Assembly: GCA_025456085.1 (NCBI GenBank)
Contig: JALOLF010000006.1
Location: forward strand, 1 to 64,000
From: Acidimicrobiales bacterium
GTDB taxonomy: Bacteria > Actinomycetota > Acidimicrobiia > Acidimicrobiales > Acidimicrobilacustridaceae
Direction: 5' to 3'
Length of the DNA stretch: 64,000 bases
A program made the translations under genes and the position numbers. Positions 55,682-64,000 of this stretch are shown here, piece after piece; positions within the stretch are counted from its first letter, which is position 1, and the number at the start of each line of letters is the position of its first letter. Below the pieces are notes generated by a model. It made no database searches and was not told the origin of the DNA. It worked only from the letters and a program-made list of their open reading frames with translations.

Positions 55682-56512
55682 TCACTGCGGCCGGTAGACG
55701 ATCACCTCGGGCAGGCGCAGCGTCGTGGCGCCGTCCACGTAACCCGGCCGCTCGGTCGTGGCGACCGTGTTGACCTGCGCGGGGTCGGCCGTCGGCGTGG
55801 TGTCCACGGCCCGGTGCCACTGGGGATCGAACGGCTGTCCCGGCTCCACGGTGAGCTCCCGCACCCCCACGTCCTGCAGGGCCCGCCCGAGGCGCTCGCG
55901 GAGGGCCTCGCTGGGCACGCTGTCGCGCACCTCGATGACGGCGGCGACCAGCGCGGCGCGTTGCCCGTCGCCGGGGGTGGCGACGGCAGGCACCGCAGCG
56001 ACCGGCACCGACGTCGACGACCCCCGGCGCAGCAGCGCCATGGCGCCGGCGCCGACGGCCGCCCCGCCGAGCAGTCCGACCAGCAGGCCGAGCACCAGCG
56101 CGCCGCCCTTGCCGTCGTCGTCGGAGCCGGCGTCGTCGCTCTCGCTGACCGGCGTGACGTCGTCCTGCTCCGCCGGCTCGGTCGTCTCGGTGGTCGACGT
56201 CCGGTCGGTGCCTCCCTCGTCCTCGTCCTCCTCCGCCTGGTCGCGCGGGTCGTCGGCGTTCGACTTCTCCTCGGTCGTGGAGGTGGTCTCCTCGTCCTCG
56301 TCGGTGGTGGGCGTGGTCGGCCGCAGGCCGGCCTGTTCGTCGAGCTGGGGCAGGTCCCCGCCCACCTCGAGGTCGGGTCGTTCCGGGCCGTCGGACGCCG
56401 TGGCGGCGTGGACGGAGGTCGTGCCGGCGGCGAGGGCCCCCACCAGCGCGGTGGCGACCGCCATCGCGCCGACCATCGCTCGCAGCGAACGGGATCCGAT
56501 GCTGGCGGTCAC
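55682..56512 (-). CDS. Membrane-anchored GrpE-like protein
   Basis: 276 residues. N-terminal hydrophobic signal (~10-36), a long Glu/Asp/Thr-rich linker (~40-132), a transmembrane helix (~134-162, GALVLGLLVGLLGGAAVGAGAMALL), then ~90 residues that read as the GrpE beta-wing: LRERLGRALQDVGVRELTVEPGQPFDPQWHRAVDTTPT, TVATTERPGYVDGATTLRLPEVIVYRP. The FDPxxHxAV and GY-G-LRxPEVxVY pattern is the conserved GrpE surface that opens Hsp70 to release ADP. The GrpE dimerisation helix is replaced by linker and membrane helix. It probably serves the Hsp70-like protein encoded at 61750. GTG at 56512 follows GAAGGAAGGGAG. Confidence 0.78.
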   Translation of the reverse strand: MTASIGSRSLRAMVGAMAVATALVGALAAGTTSVHAATASDGPERPDLEVGGDLPQLDEQAGLRPTTPTTDEDEETTSTTEEKSNADDPRDQAEEDEDEGGTDRTSTTETTEPAEQDDVTPVSESDDAGSDDDGKGGALVLGLLVGLLGGAAVGAGAMALLRRGSSTSVPVAAVPAVATPGDGQRAALVAAVIEVRDSVPSEALRERLGRALQDVGVRELTVEPGQPFDPQWHRAVDTTPTADPAQVNTVATTERPGYVDGATTLRLPEVIVYRPQ

Positions 56513-56583
56513 TGCGCTGCTCCCTTCCTTCGTGCGGCTGGGTTCGTCCGTGTGGCTGCGACGACTCCGGCGCAGCCTGCGGG

Positions 56584-56613
56584 TTGGATGCCGATGGGGC
56601 CGGCGATGTTCCC
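56584..56613 (-). promoter_or_regulatory. Putative ECF-sigma promoter of the GrpE-like gene
   Basis: Minus strand GGGAACA (56613-56607), 18 nt, TCCAA (from 56588), in the context GCATCCAA. Same geometry as the element at 57271. It overlaps the sigma-factor stop region, so the GrpE-like gene may be transcribed with the sigma gene and from this site. Confidence 0.45.
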
Positions 56614-56618
56614 GCCGG

Positions 56619-57170
56619 TCAGTCCCGGTCGGCCAGCAGGACGGCGAGACCCTGCCGGGCCCGGGAGATGCGGGTCTTCACCGTCTCGACCTTGATGCCC
56701 TGCGCCTCGGCGATCTCCTGGTACGACAGGCCGCCGTACTCCCGGAGCACGAGGGCGGCCCGGAAGTCCTCCGGCAGCTTCGACAGCGCCCAGCGCACGG
56801 ACTGCACGTCGCCCACGGTCTCGTCGGCACCACGGGCGGTGCCCGCGGCCTGTTCGGCGAGCTCCCCCACGGGCTCGGGCCGGCGCTTGCGGATGGTGGC
56901 GAGCGCGGCGTTGTGCGCGATGCGGTAGAGCCAGGTCGAGAACTTCGACCGGTGCTCGAAGCGGCCGATGTGCTTCCACGCCGCGAGCAGCGCGGCCTGC
57001 GCCGCGTCCTGGGCGAGCTGCTCGTCGCCGGTGATGCGGTAGCAGATGGTCTGCAGCATCGTGCGGTAGCGGTTCACGAGCTGGCCGAAGGCGCGTTCGT
57101 CGCCCTCCTGGGCCCATGCGATGAGGTCGCGCTCGTCGGCGCCGCCGTACCTTCGCCGCTGCTGTGTCAT
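56619..57170 (-). CDS. ECF-type RNA polymerase sigma factor
   Basis: 183 residues. Region 2 (~18-90): DLIAWAQEGDERAFGQLVNRYRTML, GDEQLAQDAAQAALLAAWKHIGRF, FSTWLYRIAHNAALATIRKRR. Region 4 (~125-180): SKLPEDFRAALVLREYGGLSYQEIAEAQGIKVETVKTRISRARQGL. No anti-sigma gene with a zinc-binding CHCC motif is adjacent; the downstream GrpE-like protein is membrane-anchored and is a candidate in that position, though it lacks an anti-sigma domain. Divergent from the acidic-protein/dynamin operon. ATG at 57170 fits the family start; longer upstream starts are possible. Confidence 0.92.
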   Translation of the reverse strand: MTQQRRRYGGADERDLIAWAQEGDERAFGQLVNRYRTMLQTICYRITGDEQLAQDAAQAALLAAWKHIGRFEHRSKFSTWLYRIAHNAALATIRKRRPEPVGELAEQAAGTARGADETVGDVQSVRWALSKLPEDFRAALVLREYGGLSYQEIAEAQGIKVETVKTRISRARQGLAVLLADRD

Positions 57171-57270
57171 GGCTTCTCGTCCCCGGATCGGAGCCCCGTG
57201 CGCCGCAAGCCTACGGGAACCGAGCGCGGCGCGGGGCGGGCGGAGGCTCGCCGGGGAATTCGGCGCCGTC

Positions 57271-57300
57271 GGGAACCTTCGCCGCTCCGGCGGCATCGTA
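57271..57300 (+). promoter_or_regulatory. Putative ECF-sigma promoter of the acidic-protein/dynamin operon
   Basis: GGGAACC (57271-57277), 18 nt, TCGTA (57296-57300) within GCATCGTA. The -35 matches the GGAAC core of ECF promoters; the spacing equals that at 63520. It lies 121 bp before the ATG at 57421, in the 250-bp divergent region next to the sigma gene. Confidence 0.55.
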
Positions 57301-57420
57301 CGCAGCGAACGAGACCGCTCGACAGGGCGGCTGGACTCCGGTGGCTCTCGCCGGCACGTGGGGCCCTATGATCGGGCGCCACGGTCGAGCCGGCTGCCGC
57401 CCGGCACACGAGGACGCACG

Positions 57421-58074
57421 ATGGACCACCAGCCCGAGATCCGCTTCCAAGAAGACGGGACGCTCGACCTCTCCGTCTTCCCCGACGTCGACCCCGACGA
57501 GGCGCTCGACCCGTCGGACCTCGAGTCGCTGCACGACACCCTGGTGTCGGATCCCGTGCCCGAGCTCGACCAGGACGCCTGGACCGGCATGCTGGACGAG
57601 GTCTTCGCCAGCGAGGGCACCGACGTCGACGACGAGCTCGTCCCCGACGACGACCCCTTCGTCCACGACGAGGACCTCGGCTCCGGTCTGGGAGGCGCCG
57701 TCGGCGACCTGGCCGACGAGGACGCCGACCTCGACGACGACGCACCCGACGTCGACGACGACGGTCCCTTCACCTTCGACGACGAGGTCGACGACATCAC
57801 CGACCTGGTCGTCGACACCGCAGGGTCCGACGACCTCGCCGACGATGCCACCGTGGCCGATGACGCCTTCGCCGACGACGCCGACGAGTTGGCCGACGAG
57901 GAGCTCGGCGTCGAGGAGTTCGCGGACCTGGGGATGGGCACGCCCGAGTTCGAGGCCGACTACGCCTCGATGGACTTCGCCCCCGGCCTCGACGACACGT
58001 CGCTGTTCGCCGAGGCGGAACCGGAGCCCTACGAGTTGCCCGAGGACGGCATCGAAGACCTCGACTGGGAGTGA
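57421..58074 (+). CDS. Highly acidic Asp-rich protein
   Basis: 217 residues. More than a third of residues are Asp or Glu, with few Lys or Arg. Low-complexity runs DEDADLDDDAPDVDDDGP and DDLADDATVADDAFADDADE are separated by short hydrophobic spots (LDLSVFPDVDPDEALDPSDL, FADLGMGTPEFEADYASMDFAPG, DGIEDLDWE). No signal peptide or membrane helix; family not recognised. One base separates its stop from the dynamin start, so it is the first gene of the operon. Possible roles are a disordered Ca2+ or protein-binding partner; these are inference. Confidence 0.75.
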   Translation: MDHQPEIRFQEDGTLDLSVFPDVDPDEALDPSDLESLHDTLVSDPVPELDQDAWTGMLDEVFASEGTDVDDELVPDDDPFVHDEDLGSGLGGAVGDLADEDADLDDDAPDVDDDGPFTFDDEVDDITDLVVDTAGSDDLADDATVADDAFADDADELADEELGVEEFADLGMGTPEFEADYASMDFAPGLDDTSLFAEAEPEPYELPEDGIEDLDWE

Positions 58075-58075
58075 G

Positions 58076-59584
58076 ATGGCGGGACGGCTGACCTCCCAGG
58101 TGGTGGCGATCTGCGACGAGGCGCTGGGGCGCCTCCAGCCCGGTGAGGCGCGCACCATGATCGAAGGGGTGCGCGCCAAGCTCGTCGAGCCGCTGCGCGT
58201 CGCGGTGGCGGGCAGCGTCAGCTCCGGCAAGTCCACGCTGGTCAACGCCTTCCTGGGTCAGAAGATCGCGGCGGTCGACGCCGGCGAGTGCACCCGGGTC
58301 GTGACCTGGTTCCGCTACGACCCCTACGAGCGCATCGAGGTCGTGCTGCGCGACGGCGGCACCAAGACCGTGCAGTTCCTGCCCGGCCACCGCATGCCCG
58401 AGTCCTTCGGCGTGCCCGTCGAGCAGATCGGCCGGGTCGTCGTGTACCTGTCGAACGAGGCGCTGCGCAACGCGGCCATCATCGACACGCCCGGGCTCAA
58501 CACCGTCACCGCCGAGAACCAGGCCGCCACGGCCGACTTCCTCGGCCTGGCCGACGGCTCGAAGGAGTCGGTCGACTCCCGGTCGGCCATGACCCAGGCC
58601 GACGCCCTGGTGTTCCTGATGCCCCACGTGCGCACGACCGATGCCGACGTGCTCACGCAGTTCCGTTCGCTGTTCGGTGGGAGCGACCTGTCGGCGGTCA
58701 ACGCGGTGGGGGTGCTGTCCAAGATCGACAAGCTGGTGGCCGACGGCGATCCGTGGCCCACGGCCCGACGGTTGGCGGAGCGGGCCCGTGAGGAGCTCGG
58801 CGACCTCGTGGCCACCGTGATCCCGGTGAACGGCCTGTTGGCCGAGACCGCCAACTGCGACCAGTTCACCGAGGCCGACGCGGCGGCGCTGCGCCAGCTC
58901 GCGTCCCTGGACGAGATGGACCTCGAGGACATGGTCCTGTCCCAGACGGACTTCCTCGACTCGGACCTGTCCGAGCTGTCCCGGGAGCAGCGACACCGCC
59001 TGCTGGGCCGTCTGGACCTGCGCGGCATCCAGGTCGGGGTCCAGCTCGTCCAGCAGGGCGTGGTGGGTGCCGCGGCGCTGCTCCCGCGGTTCCGCACCGA
59101 GTCCGGCTTCGATCCCCTCGGCCAGGTCGTGCAGGACGTCTTCCTGCGTCGCTCCGACGCCCTGAAGGCCCACGTGGGCCTGTGCGACCTGCGGCGCCTC
59201 ACCTACCTGCGCTCCGACGGGCTGGCCGCGGACGAGCTCATGACCATGCGGGCCCCGCTCGAGCGGGTGGAGCTCGATCCGGGCCTGCACGACCTGCGCA
59301 TCGTCGACGCCCTCAACCGGGCCTATCGGGGCGACGTGTTCCTGCCCGAGGCGCTCCTGGGCGACCTGCGCCGCCTGGCGCTGGAGCCCACCGCCGCCCG
59401 TCGGGTCGGCCTGGGTGACGCGGCGATCCCGTCGGACGTGGCCAACGCCGCCGCGCAGCGGGCCCAGGCGTGGGCCGTGTACGAGAACGACTTCCGCCGC
59501 AGCCCCGACGAGCGTCGCCTGGCCGGCGACGTGCGCGAGGGCTTCGAGCTCCTGTGGGACCAGGCGGCCAGCGGCGTCGTGTGA
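58076..59584 (+). CDS. Dynamin-family GTPase (IniC-like)
   Basis: 502 residues. G1 GSVSSGKSTLVN (46-57), a Thr-containing switch region (DAGECTRVVTWFRY), G3 IIDTPGLNT (~138), G4 VLSKIDKL (~216). C-terminal helices follow (LSELSREQRHRLLGRLDLRGIQVGVQLVQQG and later helices). There is no strong membrane hairpin, as in mycobacterial IniC. Bacterial dynamins assemble on membranes and remodel or protect them. The upstream acidic gene's stop is 1 nt away and the second dynamin starts 42 bp downstream, as expected for a two-subunit dynamin. Confidence 0.9.
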   Translation: MAGRLTSQVVAICDEALGRLQPGEARTMIEGVRAKLVEPLRVAVAGSVSSGKSTLVNAFLGQKIAAVDAGECTRVVTWFRYDPYERIEVVLRDGGTKTVQFLPGHRMPESFGVPVEQIGRVVVYLSNEALRNAAIIDTPGLNTVTAENQAATADFLGLADGSKESVDSRSAMTQADALVFLMPHVRTTDADVLTQFRSLFGGSDLSAVNAVGVLSKIDKLVADGDPWPTARRLAERAREELGDLVATVIPVNGLLAETANCDQFTEADAAALRQLASLDEMDLEDMVLSQTDFLDSDLSELSREQRHRLLGRLDLRGIQVGVQLVQQGVVGAAALLPRFRTESGFDPLGQVVQDVFLRRSDALKAHVGLCDLRRLTYLRSDGLAADELMTMRAPLERVELDPGLHDLRIVDALNRAYRGDVFLPEALLGDLRRLALEPTAARRVGLGDAAIPSDVANAAAQRAQAWAVYENDFRRSPDERRLAGDVREGFELLWDQAASGVV

Positions 59585-59626
59585 ACGACAGCACACCGAG
59601 GCACACCACACCGAGGAGGGTCGCCA

Positions 59627-61687
59627 GTGAGCACAGCCGACGCCGCCGCACCAGCGGAGGACCCGAAGCCGTCGGGGGACGGGAAGGCGCAGGCGCCGCA
59701 GCTCGTGCCGGCCGTGCTCAAGTACGGCAACCGCCTCTACGGCTTCCTCAAGAACCTCGATCGTGACGAGCTCGCCCAGCGGATGGCCGACGAGGCCATG
59801 CGCTGGAAGGAGGACCGCACCTCCATCGTCGTGGCCGGCGAGATCAAGCGGGGCAAGACGAGCTTCATCAACGCCGTGCTGGGCCAGTCCCAGCTGCTGC
59901 CGGTGGACGCCGACGTGGCCACCAGCGTGCACCTGGCCGTCGGGTACGCGCCGCAGCTCGTCATCCGGGTCACCAAGAGCATCGACGACGAGGTCGATCA
60001 GTTCACGATCCGACCCGACCAGCTCGTCGACTACGGGTCGATGCTGGGCGATCCCGCCAAGCGTGAGGGGGTGGAGGTCATCGAGGTCGGCCTGCCGCAC
60101 CCCCTGCTCGAACGGGGGCTCGTGCTGATCGACACCCCGGGTGTGGGTGGCCTCACCCCCGGGCACCGCGACATCGCGCTGTCGGCGCTCGGACGGGCCG
60201 ACGCCCTGGTGTTCACCGTCTCCTCCCAGGAGCCGGTCCTGCGCTCGGAGCTGGACTTCCTGGCCGAGGCCAGCGAGCGCATCGACGAGGTCCTCTTCGT
60301 GCTGACCAAGGTCGACGCCAACGCCGACTGGGCGCGGATGCTCGACGAGAACCGCGACAAGATGCGCCAGTACCTGACCCAGCTCCAGGGGCGGGCGCAC
60401 GGCCCCGAGGCCACCGAGCACGACAAGGAGATCGTGCGTCGGTTCCCCCGCCTGCTCGAGGACCCCTTCATCCCCGTGAGCGCCCGCATGGCCGAGCGGG
60501 CCCGCGCCCGGGCGGAGGCCGGCCGGGTGGAGCAGGCCGCGGAGCTCCACGCCCGCAGCGGCTTCGCGCCCATCGAGGTGGAGCTGGACCGCATCCTGCG
60601 CTCCCGGGAGTACGTGCGGCTCAACAACATCCTCCGGCTGGGGTCGTCGCTGCTGTCCCGGGTGGAGGAGGAGGCGAACCAGCGCATCCGCATCATCGAC
60701 GGCGACCACACCGTCCAACAGGAGATGGCCGACAAGCAGGCCCTGCTCGAGGACCTGGTGTCCAAGCAGTCGCGCTGGCGGCAGCGCTTCGCCGGCAGCG
60801 TGCAGCGCATCCAGACCGAGACCAACCGCCGCGTGGGTCGGGAGCTGGGGCAGATCGAGCGCACGTACCGCCAGATCCTGAACGAGCACAAGCCGGAGGA
60901 GCTCGCCGACACCCTCCCCGAGGAGCTCGAGCGCTCGGTCTACGCGGCCTGGTTGAACCTCACCGGGTTCATGATCGCCGGGTTCGACGAGGCGCTCACC
61001 GAGCTGATGGGCAGCCTCGAGGTGGAGGGCCTCGACGTCGAGCTGGCCCAGATGTCGGTGCCGGGGGACATGCAGATCATCGGCATGCGGGACCGCACCA
61101 ACGCCGAGGTGGGCAAGGGCAGCTTCCTCGACGACGGCCTGCCCCTCATCACCTCGGCCAGCATCTTCTCCAGCATGATCACCAAGGCCATCGGCGCGTC
61201 GGCCATGGGGGGCATGGGCATGATGTTCCTGCCCGGCCTGTTGGTGGCCGGACCGGTCGCCTACCTGCGCTCCAAGAAGCGCAAGTCCATGCAGCAGCGC
61301 GCCGAGTACCTGCGGGTCATGAAGGAGCTCCTGGTGGAGGTGCGCCAGGAGTTCCAGAGCGAGCTCAGCCTCAAGGTGCTCGACGTGCGCGAGAAGCTCG
61401 AGACCATGATCGACGAGGCGCTCGGCAACCGGCGCAAGGAGCTCGAGCTCCAGCGCAAGGACCTGGCCGGCCTGTTGAAGGAGGACACGGCGCGCCGGGC
61501 CCAGCTTCGGGCCGAGGCCAAGGAGCTGGTGCAGAAGGTCCAGGCCCACCGCGCCGAGGCGGACAAGCTCCGGGTGGCCGTCGACCGGGCCTCCCAGGCC
61601 GCGCTGGCCGCCGCGCCGCGGGCCGCGGCATCGGCCGCTGCGACCGATGTCGCCGCCTCCGCCGCAGCCGCGCCGGCGACGACCTAA
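59627..61687 (+). CDS. Dynamin-family GTPase with membrane hairpin (IniA-like)
   Basis: 686 residues. G1 GEIKRGKTSFIN (71-82), switch VDADVATSVHLAVGY, G3 LIDTPGVGG, G4 VLTKVDANADW. Long coiled-coil stalk helices (~330-460 and ~555-650) flank a hydrophobic hairpin (~510-545: SASIFSSMITKAIGA, GGMGMMFLPGLLVAGPVAYLRSKKRK), the membrane insertion element of bacterial dynamins. The Ala-rich C-terminus is low complexity. GTG at 59627 follows GAGGAGGG. Together with the 58076 product it forms the expected membrane-active pair. Confidence 0.92.
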   Translation: MSTADAAAPAEDPKPSGDGKAQAPQLVPAVLKYGNRLYGFLKNLDRDELAQRMADEAMRWKEDRTSIVVAGEIKRGKTSFINAVLGQSQLLPVDADVATSVHLAVGYAPQLVIRVTKSIDDEVDQFTIRPDQLVDYGSMLGDPAKREGVEVIEVGLPHPLLERGLVLIDTPGVGGLTPGHRDIALSALGRADALVFTVSSQEPVLRSELDFLAEASERIDEVLFVLTKVDANADWARMLDENRDKMRQYLTQLQGRAHGPEATEHDKEIVRRFPRLLEDPFIPVSARMAERARARAEAGRVEQAAELHARSGFAPIEVELDRILRSREYVRLNNILRLGSSLLSRVEEEANQRIRIIDGDHTVQQEMADKQALLEDLVSKQSRWRQRFAGSVQRIQTETNRRVGRELGQIERTYRQILNEHKPEELADTLPEELERSVYAAWLNLTGFMIAGFDEALTELMGSLEVEGLDVELAQMSVPGDMQIIGMRDRTNAEVGKGSFLDDGLPLITSASIFSSMITKAIGASAMGGMGMMFLPGLLVAGPVAYLRSKKRKSMQQRAEYLRVMKELLVEVRQEFQSELSLKVLDVREKLETMIDEALGNRRKELELQRKDLAGLLKEDTARRAQLRAEAKELVQKVQAHRAEADKLRVAVDRASQAALAAAPRAAASAAATDVAASAAAAPATT

Positions 61688-61749
61688 CCTGTCGCCGTCC
61701 GTGCACCGCTCGGACCGAGCCTGACGAGCTGAGGAGACCGGCTTCCCCC

Positions 61750-63414
<1,665 letters not shown>

Positions 63415-63450
63415 GGCTCTGACGGTTCGAGAGAAAGGGGGGCGTGGCGG

Positions 63451-63480
63451 GTCGGGTGGGGGGATCCCCGCGGGCCCGAC
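63451..63480 (+). terminator. Possible operon-end hairpin
   Basis: Outer arms GTCGGG (63451-63456) and CCCGAC (63475-63480) with an inner GGGGATCCCC. It lies 37 bp after the Hsp70-like stop and before the next promoter candidate. The stem is interrupted, so this is tentative. Confidence 0.4.
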
Positions 63481-63519
63481 CGATGCGGCGGACCTCCGCG
63501 GCGGTTCACGGAGATTCCC

Positions 63520-63549
63520 GGGAACCTCGGCGGGGCGCCGGGACTCCTA
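63520..63549 (+). promoter_or_regulatory. Putative ECF-sigma promoter of the Asp-repeat gene
   Basis: GGGAACC (63520-63526), 18 nt, TCCTA (63545-63549). Identical -35 and spacing to the element at 57271, 109 bp before the ATG at 63658. Confidence 0.5.
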
Positions 63550-63657
63550 TGGGCAACGGTGCGCACGGCAGAGTCCGGGCCACCGGGGCTCCCGAGCCTC
63601 CGGGTGGGGAGCGACCCACCCACACGTCCAGCCCTACCGGGCGGAAAGGATCAACAG

Positions 63658-64000
63658 ATGTCCGAGTTCGAGATCGAGGGCGACTTCTTCTCCGTCGACG
63701 AAGATGTGGACGGCACCGACGACGCGATCGTCATGGACATGGACGGCGACGGGCTCTACGACGCCACGGCACTGGACCTCGACGACAACGGGACGATCGA
63801 CGAGATCGACTTCGACTCCGATGGCGACGGGATCGTCGACACCGTCCTGCTCGACACCGATGGTGACGGCCACGGCGAGACGGTGCTCTACGACGACAAC
63901 GAGGACGGCTACGTGGACGCCGAGGAGGTCGACTTCGACCGTGACGCCGACGTCGACGCCACCATCGTCGACGTCGACTACGACGGGTACGGCGACGTCG
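63658..64000 (+). CDS. Asp-rich Ca2+-binding-repeat protein (3' end beyond window)
   Basis: At least 114 residues, open at the window end. ATG at 63658 follows GGAAAGGATCAACAG. After MSEFEIEGDFFSVDED the sequence is repeated DxDGDGxxD loops: DMDGDGLYDATALDLDDNGTID, DFDSDGDGIVDTVLLDTDGDGHGE, DDNEDGYVDAEEVDFDRDAD, each spaced by about 12 residues. These loops match EF-hand-like or thrombospondin-type-3-like calcium motifs. No signal peptide is seen, so a cytosolic location is likely unless exported by another route. Placed after the dynamin/Hsp70 operon with its own ECF-type promoter candidate. Confidence 0.8.
   Translation, partial: MSEFEIEGDFFSVDEDVDGTDDAIVMDMDGDGLYDATALDLDDNGTIDEIDFDSDGDGIVDTVLLDTDGDGHGETVLYDDNEDGYVDAEEVDFDRDADVDATIVDVDYDGYGDV

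Follow-up and report, generated by a model that had tools for sequence, protein, structure and literature searches.

A dynamin-like GTPase pair encoded with a GrpE head and an Hsp70 ATPase domain without a substrate-binding domain: a candidate ATP-driven control system in actinobacteria

Introduction

Why should genes for chaperone-like proteins lie among those for a pair of dynamin-like GTPases, and do their products act together? The question is raised by a locus at positions 55682 to 64000 of a 64,000-nucleotide stretch (the window) of contig JALOLF010000006.1 from an Acidimicrobiales bacterium (GCA_025456085.1). A preliminary description of this DNA had proposed that a GrpE-like and an Hsp70-like domain, both tethered to the membrane, form an ATP-driven switch acting on dynamin assemblies, had counted an extracytoplasmic function (ECF) sigma factor and acidic and calcium-binding proteins among the parts, and had called for a survey of gene neighbourhoods. 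Our answer is tentative: we give a probability of roughly 0.4 to a conserved actinobacterial system in which a dynamin-like GTPase pair is controlled by an Hsp70-type nucleotide switch lacking a substrate-binding domain (SBD). Sequence, structure prediction and comparative genomics show which parts there are, how they fold, that they are linked and that they occur jointly across genomes, and these data say that the dynamin pair, the GrpE head and the SBD-less ("stripped") Hsp70 belong together.

Results

Layout of the locus

Seven open reading frames in two tightly spaced divergent units were confirmed in position, with intergenic gaps of exactly 1, 42 and 62 bp (58074/58076, 59584/59627 and 61687/61750). 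For the ECF sigma factor the earlier identification stood, but its start lies at 57170 and not at 57296. The features are as follows.

55682..56512, minus strand: membrane-anchored GrpE-head protein, 276 aa; alternative start possible at 56476; PF01025 match above cut-off
56619..57170, minus strand: ECF sigma factor (183 aa), transcribed away from the operon; Sigma70 regions 2 and 4 only
57421..58074, plus strand: acidic protein, 217 aa, 38% D/E, without Pfam match
58076..59584, plus strand: dynamin-like GTPase 1 (dyn1), IniC-sized, 502 aa; Dynamin_N; placed in a tree of 45 homologues
59627..61687, plus strand: dynamin-like GTPase 2 (dyn2), IniA-like, 686 aa; Dynamin_N; matches IniA (6j72) by sequence and fold
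61750..63414, plus strand: membrane-anchored Hsp70 ATPase domain, 554 aa, without SBD; PF00012 at 1.8e-38 over residues 107-352
63658..64000, plus strand: DxDxDG-repeat protein, likely calcium-binding; extends beyond the window to contig position 64065
Contig 64251-64790, beyond the window: second DxDxDG-repeat gene, 3' of the first

The remaining Pfam matches were GrpE PF01025 (1.9e-8), Sigma70_r2 (5.5e-19) and r4_2 (4.2e-16), and Dynamin_N (5.7e-14 and 1.7e-16). Throughout, loci are our own calls from a simple gene caller and profiles, mostly on draft genomes, and gene content and folds are computational only.

Linkage and joint presence

Homologues of dyn1 were gathered by dynamin sequence alone from relatives, named genomes and the phylum at large, giving 61 loci. 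The top match among named genomes was an Acidimicrobiaceae metagenome-assembled genome, in keeping with a probable Acidimicrobiia-like source of the window. Three of these (L123, L125, L126) entered via Hsp70 or GrpE searches and hence are not independent, and the set includes close relatives, such that its counts are not independent events. A non-DnaK Hsp70 was encoded within 6 kb of a dynamin gene in 42 of the 61 loci, and in 33 of the 40 for which 6 kb were present on both sides. Since genomes carry 3-11 Hsp70-family matches (8 in the window's 4.85-Mb genome), chance would be expected to place an Hsp70 near only a few per cent of dynamin loci. Over 35 loci, the distance matrices of dyn1 and Hsp70 were correlated (Mantel r 0.71, p 0.0002), with species signal retained.

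From the other side, a profile of the short GrpE family to which the window's protein belongs was run at E<=1e-18 on 299 sampled genomes of Amycolatopsis' order, and 81 were positive; in a phylum-wide draw, only the window's genome and G193 clearly exceeded ordinary GrpE on this profile. Forty of the 81 loci were retrieved and the gene was called in 38, in every one of which it directly adjoins a dynamin gene, both dynamins being present in 37. The commonest order is dyn1-GrpE-dyn2 followed by a DxDxDG protein (23/38) or an acidic protein (10/38). An Hsp70 lies within five genes in 8 loci. L164 has Hsp70-dyn1-GrpE-dyn2-DxDxDG-DxDxDG on one strand, and G193 (L121) has the order Hsp70-GrpE-dyn1. 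J-domain genes were found in 7 of the 38, with HPD in all seven and predicted transmembrane helices in six. Such a protein with HPD, carrying predicted membrane helices in most cases, is encoded 3' of the dyn1-GrpE-dyn2-acidic operon at L059:14974-16239, L131, L134-L137, L143 and L162, and Glycomyces likewise has a downstream J-domain gene with HPD (Pfam DnaJ 4.2e-15).

Window-type Hsp70, counted at E<=1e-120, was present in 60 of the 81 GrpE-positive genomes versus 4 of the 218 GrpE-negative ones (Fisher 8e-40, phylogeny not corrected). At E<=1e-100 the figures were 79/81 and 33/218, but other Hsp70 subfamilies are then mixed in; the stricter counts are preferred because the weaker matches include these subfamilies, two inspected cases being neighbours of type VII secretion genes. 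Among genomes with the Hsp70 only, counted at E<=1e-118, two of five (G493, G754) have dynamin genes adjoining it.

The neighbourhood survey, run as a check that could have told against the preliminary description, thus found that the genes do not scatter, and the GrpE-head, Hsp70 and dynamin folds that it named are upheld by Pfam, models and fold searches. Its pairing of GrpE with Hsp70 survives in altered form: the two co-occur across genomes even when unlinked, but GrpE is linked most tightly to the dynamins and not to the Hsp70 gene.

The GrpE head

From its N-terminus, the window's GrpE-like protein runs through a hydrophobic stretch (12-30) and a T/E/D-rich acidic region to a membrane helix (139-157) with RR after it, and ends in the GrpE head (~182-276). 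It scores 34.6 bits on PF01025 against a curated cut-off of 25.8, and seven more members of the short family also exceed the cut-off. A PDB sequence search with the full-length protein returned GrpE at E 0.067 only, and a fold search was needed. The AlphaFold2 model of the head (pLDDT 86) yielded GrpE as the sole family among Foldseek matches below 1e-3, and VIA-align gave Z up to 11.7, with GrpEL1 (9bls_B) at Z 11.1 (91 residues, rmsd 2.1) and the best non-GrpE entry at Z 4.2. Judged by sequence and predicted model, this is a genuine GrpE head. The positive-inside rule would place it, like the Hsp70 ATPase domain, in the cytosol. Several short GrpE copies have no membrane helix. In every checked genome where a strong short-GrpE match lies next to dynamins, a separate GrpE-family match exists too, which makes the short GrpE an addition; in the window's genome, the ordinary GrpE adjoins DnaK. 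A GrpE arginine equivalent to Mtb R169 appeared, in eight sequences, to track with the neighbouring Hsp70; in a wider set the position was mostly T, V or P, and the idea was dropped.

The stripped Hsp70

In the window Hsp70, an ATPase domain of ~360 aa is joined by a linker rich in Pro/Ala to a part with two hydrophobic segments (487-505, 522-540). By alignment its phosphate and adenosine motifs are conserved (DFGTT, YDLGGGTFD, GGSSRIP). With the SBD of the genome's own DnaK as query, no dynamin-linked non-DnaK Hsp70 was matched, the window's included, while true DnaKs in the same locus set scored 213-226 bits. Being without an SBD, this Hsp70 is not a folding chaperone of the DnaK type. Among NCBIfam models HscA scores highest (2.9e-44), though far below that model's cut-off.

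Relatives occur in other settings. A second Hsp70 of the same subfamily, 67% identical and truncated at the contig end, directly follows a PknB-like membrane kinase gene outside the window (contig C261 74656-75484; L010:4656-5483). Away from dynamins, window-type Hsp70 often adjoins recA and a short conserved gene of ~64 aa (L173, L175-L178), and a related stripped Hsp70 is the immediate neighbour of WXG100 and EccC-like type VII secretion genes (L186:7497-9701, L187:7787-9949). Beside mycobacterial iniBAC, an Hsp70-like protein (L078:3529-5415, L113, L115) has an altered phosphate loop, e.g. LSIGATN for DLGTT, and may be a dead ATPase.

The dynamin pair

The motifs GSVSSGKST and DTPG can be read in dyn1. 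For dyn2, the PDB sequence match is IniA (6j72, 9.2e-18), and its model (pLDDT 78.5) has IniA as top Foldseek PDB match (3.6e-21), with BDLP, CjDLP and mitofusins ranking next. IniA itself is a dynamin with membrane-fission activity in vitro, and its partner IniC is thought to assist it (PMC6715688). When 45 dyn1 proteins were placed in a quick maximum-likelihood tree with SH-aLRT support, a clade of 31, all ordered dyn2-dyn1, contained mycobacterial IniC; the window, with dyn1 before dyn2, fell outside, as did all short-GrpE loci (8) and divergent-sigma loci (4) in the tree. DxDxDG proteins similar to the window's pair are restricted to the non-IniC branch among the 61 loci, and IniB-like N-terminal domains are frequent at IniC-type loci. 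The earlier assignment to the IniA/IniC type is right as to relatedness, IniA being the best structure match, but the locus is not iniBAC itself: the dyn1 tree places the window dynamins as sisters of the mycobacterial IniC/IniA branch.

The window's genome holds at least three further dynamin-pair clusters (L036, L038 and L056, on C152, C87 and C145), two with a stripped Hsp70; that on C87 lies near several similar single-transmembrane proteins. Elsewhere, at L048:6832-9663, a dyn1 GTPase is fused to a Ser/Thr protein kinase domain (Pfam Pkinase and Dynamin_N).

Sigma factor, acidic and DxDxDG proteins

Homologues of the ECF sigma factor at linked loci score 215, 205 and 163 bits versus 114 for the best paralogue in its own genome. 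A divergent sigma of this kind lies beside dynamins in four loci only, namely the window, G012, G001 and Williamsia. A candidate ECF promoter (GGAACC-N19-CGT) occurs in one copy at 57272, the same was not found in G012 or G001, and no conserved ECF promoter emerged across the divergent regions. Homologues of the acidic protein occupy the same slot in G012 and G001 and have a common N-terminal motif, DGxLDLxxFPxxDPD. The first DxDxDG protein (135 aa) has 8 such motifs and the second (179 aa) has 10; homologues adjoin dynamins in G012, Millisia and a Micromonosporaceae metagenome-assembled genome (MAG).

Discussion

To discern how such a system might work, the observations that fit it poorly have to be considered together. 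No Hsp70 gene lies near the short GrpE in 30 of 38 loci, and common descent may be a partial source of the joint presence of the two across genomes. The long N-terminal paired helix of GrpE is not present in the window protein, which has a signal, linker and transmembrane region instead, the match beginning at profile position 98 of 165. On the Hsp70 side, the IIB hairpin (the "GrpE signature") of the window copy is 8 residues shorter than in the genome's own DnaK, with 18-21 residues between the hairpin markers in linked Hsp70s where measurable versus 26, and the window copy retains neither cleft salt bridge (K55 to A, R56 to N, E264 to A, E267 to R). This long beta-hairpin (DnaK 276-302) is kept by GrpE-dependent Hsp70s and absent from HscA-like ones (PMC10825016, PMC8215388). 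All of these points weigh against the GrpE-Hsp70 switch. The shortened hairpin and missing salt bridges mean that the window Hsp70 may not need an exchange factor, which makes canonical GrpE action doubtful, and GrpE may consequently act in an altered way or directly on the dynamins.

Such observations are accommodated if the GrpE head serves chiefly as an adaptor of structural kind or a regulator, bridging or anchoring the dynamin pair, with the Hsp70 a separate ATPase partner outside its control. Short GrpE adjoins a dynamin in 38 of 38 loci with an Hsp70 nearby in only 8, copies without a membrane helix may form a soluble complex with dynamins, and the window Hsp70 is without the GrpE-signature hairpin. 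We nevertheless consider this explanation unlikely, if a serious contender, as GrpE and window-type Hsp70 are jointly present across the 299 genomes even when unlinked, and the J-protein genes of that operon subtype suggest a complete Hsp70 cycle. A plainer explanation is an ordinary envelope-stress operon, in which dynamins and chaperone-like proteins are merely co-regulated and form no common machine. A stripped Hsp70 could not fold proteins in the manner of DnaK, however, and the tight dyn1-GrpE-dyn2 order with a dedicated extra short GrpE speaks for a specific partnership; hence co-regulation seems to us unlikely, despite the resemblance of the dynamins to IniA/IniC, the divergent sigma in four loci and the dnaK-like gene next to iniR (Boot et al. 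2017, PMC5760070).

Two further explanations are much less probable. Because the GrpE gene comes after that for the sigma factor in the same orientation, where anti-sigma genes are usually found, and its product would combine an ectodomain with a membrane helix and a head in the cytosol, the protein could be an anti-sigma-like membrane regulator of the adjacent ECF sigma and not an Hsp70 partner; this is very improbable given that no sigma homologue lies near short GrpE in any of the 38 loci and that the two genes are on opposite strands in G001. For a phage-defence or other conflict system built on the dynamin pair there are matches of the PADLOC LeoA and LeoBC models to the window dynamins, but they are weak (53 and 56 bits), the LeoA match covers only part of the GTPase region, other PADLOC defence models are unmatched, and flanking genes are constant in several loci, e.g. 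in mycobacteria. With weak Leo matches only, we set this highly improbable reading aside.

Returning to control of the dynamin pair by a stripped Hsp70, the following sequence of events can be proposed. The dynamins would remodel or mend the cell membrane, by analogy with IniA in vitro. Anchored in the membrane through its C-terminal helices, the ATPase domain of the Hsp70 would bind the dynamin pair in a nucleotide-dependent manner. The GrpE head, whose gene lies between or next to those of the dynamins, would open and reset that domain, and hydrolysis would be triggered in some lineages by a membrane J-protein. Dynamin assembly or release could thereby be ATP-driven, with the acidic and DxDxDG proteins as putative soluble regulators and, in lineages having it, the ECF sigma turning the genes on under envelope stress. 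A dedicated Hsp70 cycle of this kind, combining the stripped ATPase with a membrane-bound or soluble GrpE head and, in some lineages, a J-protein, might power the assembly or recycling of the pair and so be a bacterial counterpart in principle to Hsc70/auxilin on clathrin coats; this is a tentative proposal to which we give less than even odds. Taken as a whole, the preliminary interpretation keeps its folds and gene linkage; it has to yield where GrpE is tied to the dynamins, the Hsp70 is without the GrpE hairpin and the sigma is rare.

A dynamin-adjoining GrpE and an Hsp70 ATPase without a client-binding domain provide a concrete, testable partner set for the control of bacterial dynamins. 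If the proposal is true, an Hsp70 nucleotide cycle would serve as a pure switch instead of in folding. The gene set is carried by many soil-type actinobacteria and suggests an ATP-driven control device for dynamins, which bears on how actinobacteria handle membrane stress, including the mycobacterial iniBAC response to drug stress.

Comparison with known systems

LeoABC and CjDLP1/2 are likewise paired bacterial dynamin-like GTPases, and to our knowledge no Hsp70-cycle parts are known for either. In the searchable literature, which leaves subscription papers and preprints outside, neither dynamin (IniA) with Hsp70 and GrpE nor dynamin with GrpE in Actinobacteria was found; the combination was, as first supposed, undescribed, except for a single sentence in Boot et al. 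2017 (PMC5760070), which mentions a dnaK-like gene 3' of iniR in M. smegmatis. With the mycobacterial iniBAC/IniR system, the window locus has in common an adjacent dynamin-like GTPase pair, an accessory protein gene upstream and IniA as best structure match of dyn2, and a non-DnaK Hsp70 is often present at iniAC-type loci. It differs in the order dyn1 before dyn2, in its separate dyn1 branch, and in having a GrpE head, acidic and DxDxDG proteins and an ECF sigma instead; the annotated flanks of the window locus showed no IniB-like protein or IniR. HscA does its work independently of GrpE and resembles the window Hsp70 in its shortened IIB hairpin and missing cleft salt bridges, but has an SBD and an Fe-S role. 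Another related system is DnaK-DnaJ-GrpE, an ordinary DnaK/GrpE set being encoded separately in the window's genome: both have an Hsp70 ATPase domain with ATP-binding motifs and a genuine GrpE head, and some lineages of the window system add a J-protein with HPD, whereas the window system is without the SBD, the GrpE-signature hairpin and the long GrpE helix, and has membrane anchors and linkage to dynamins.
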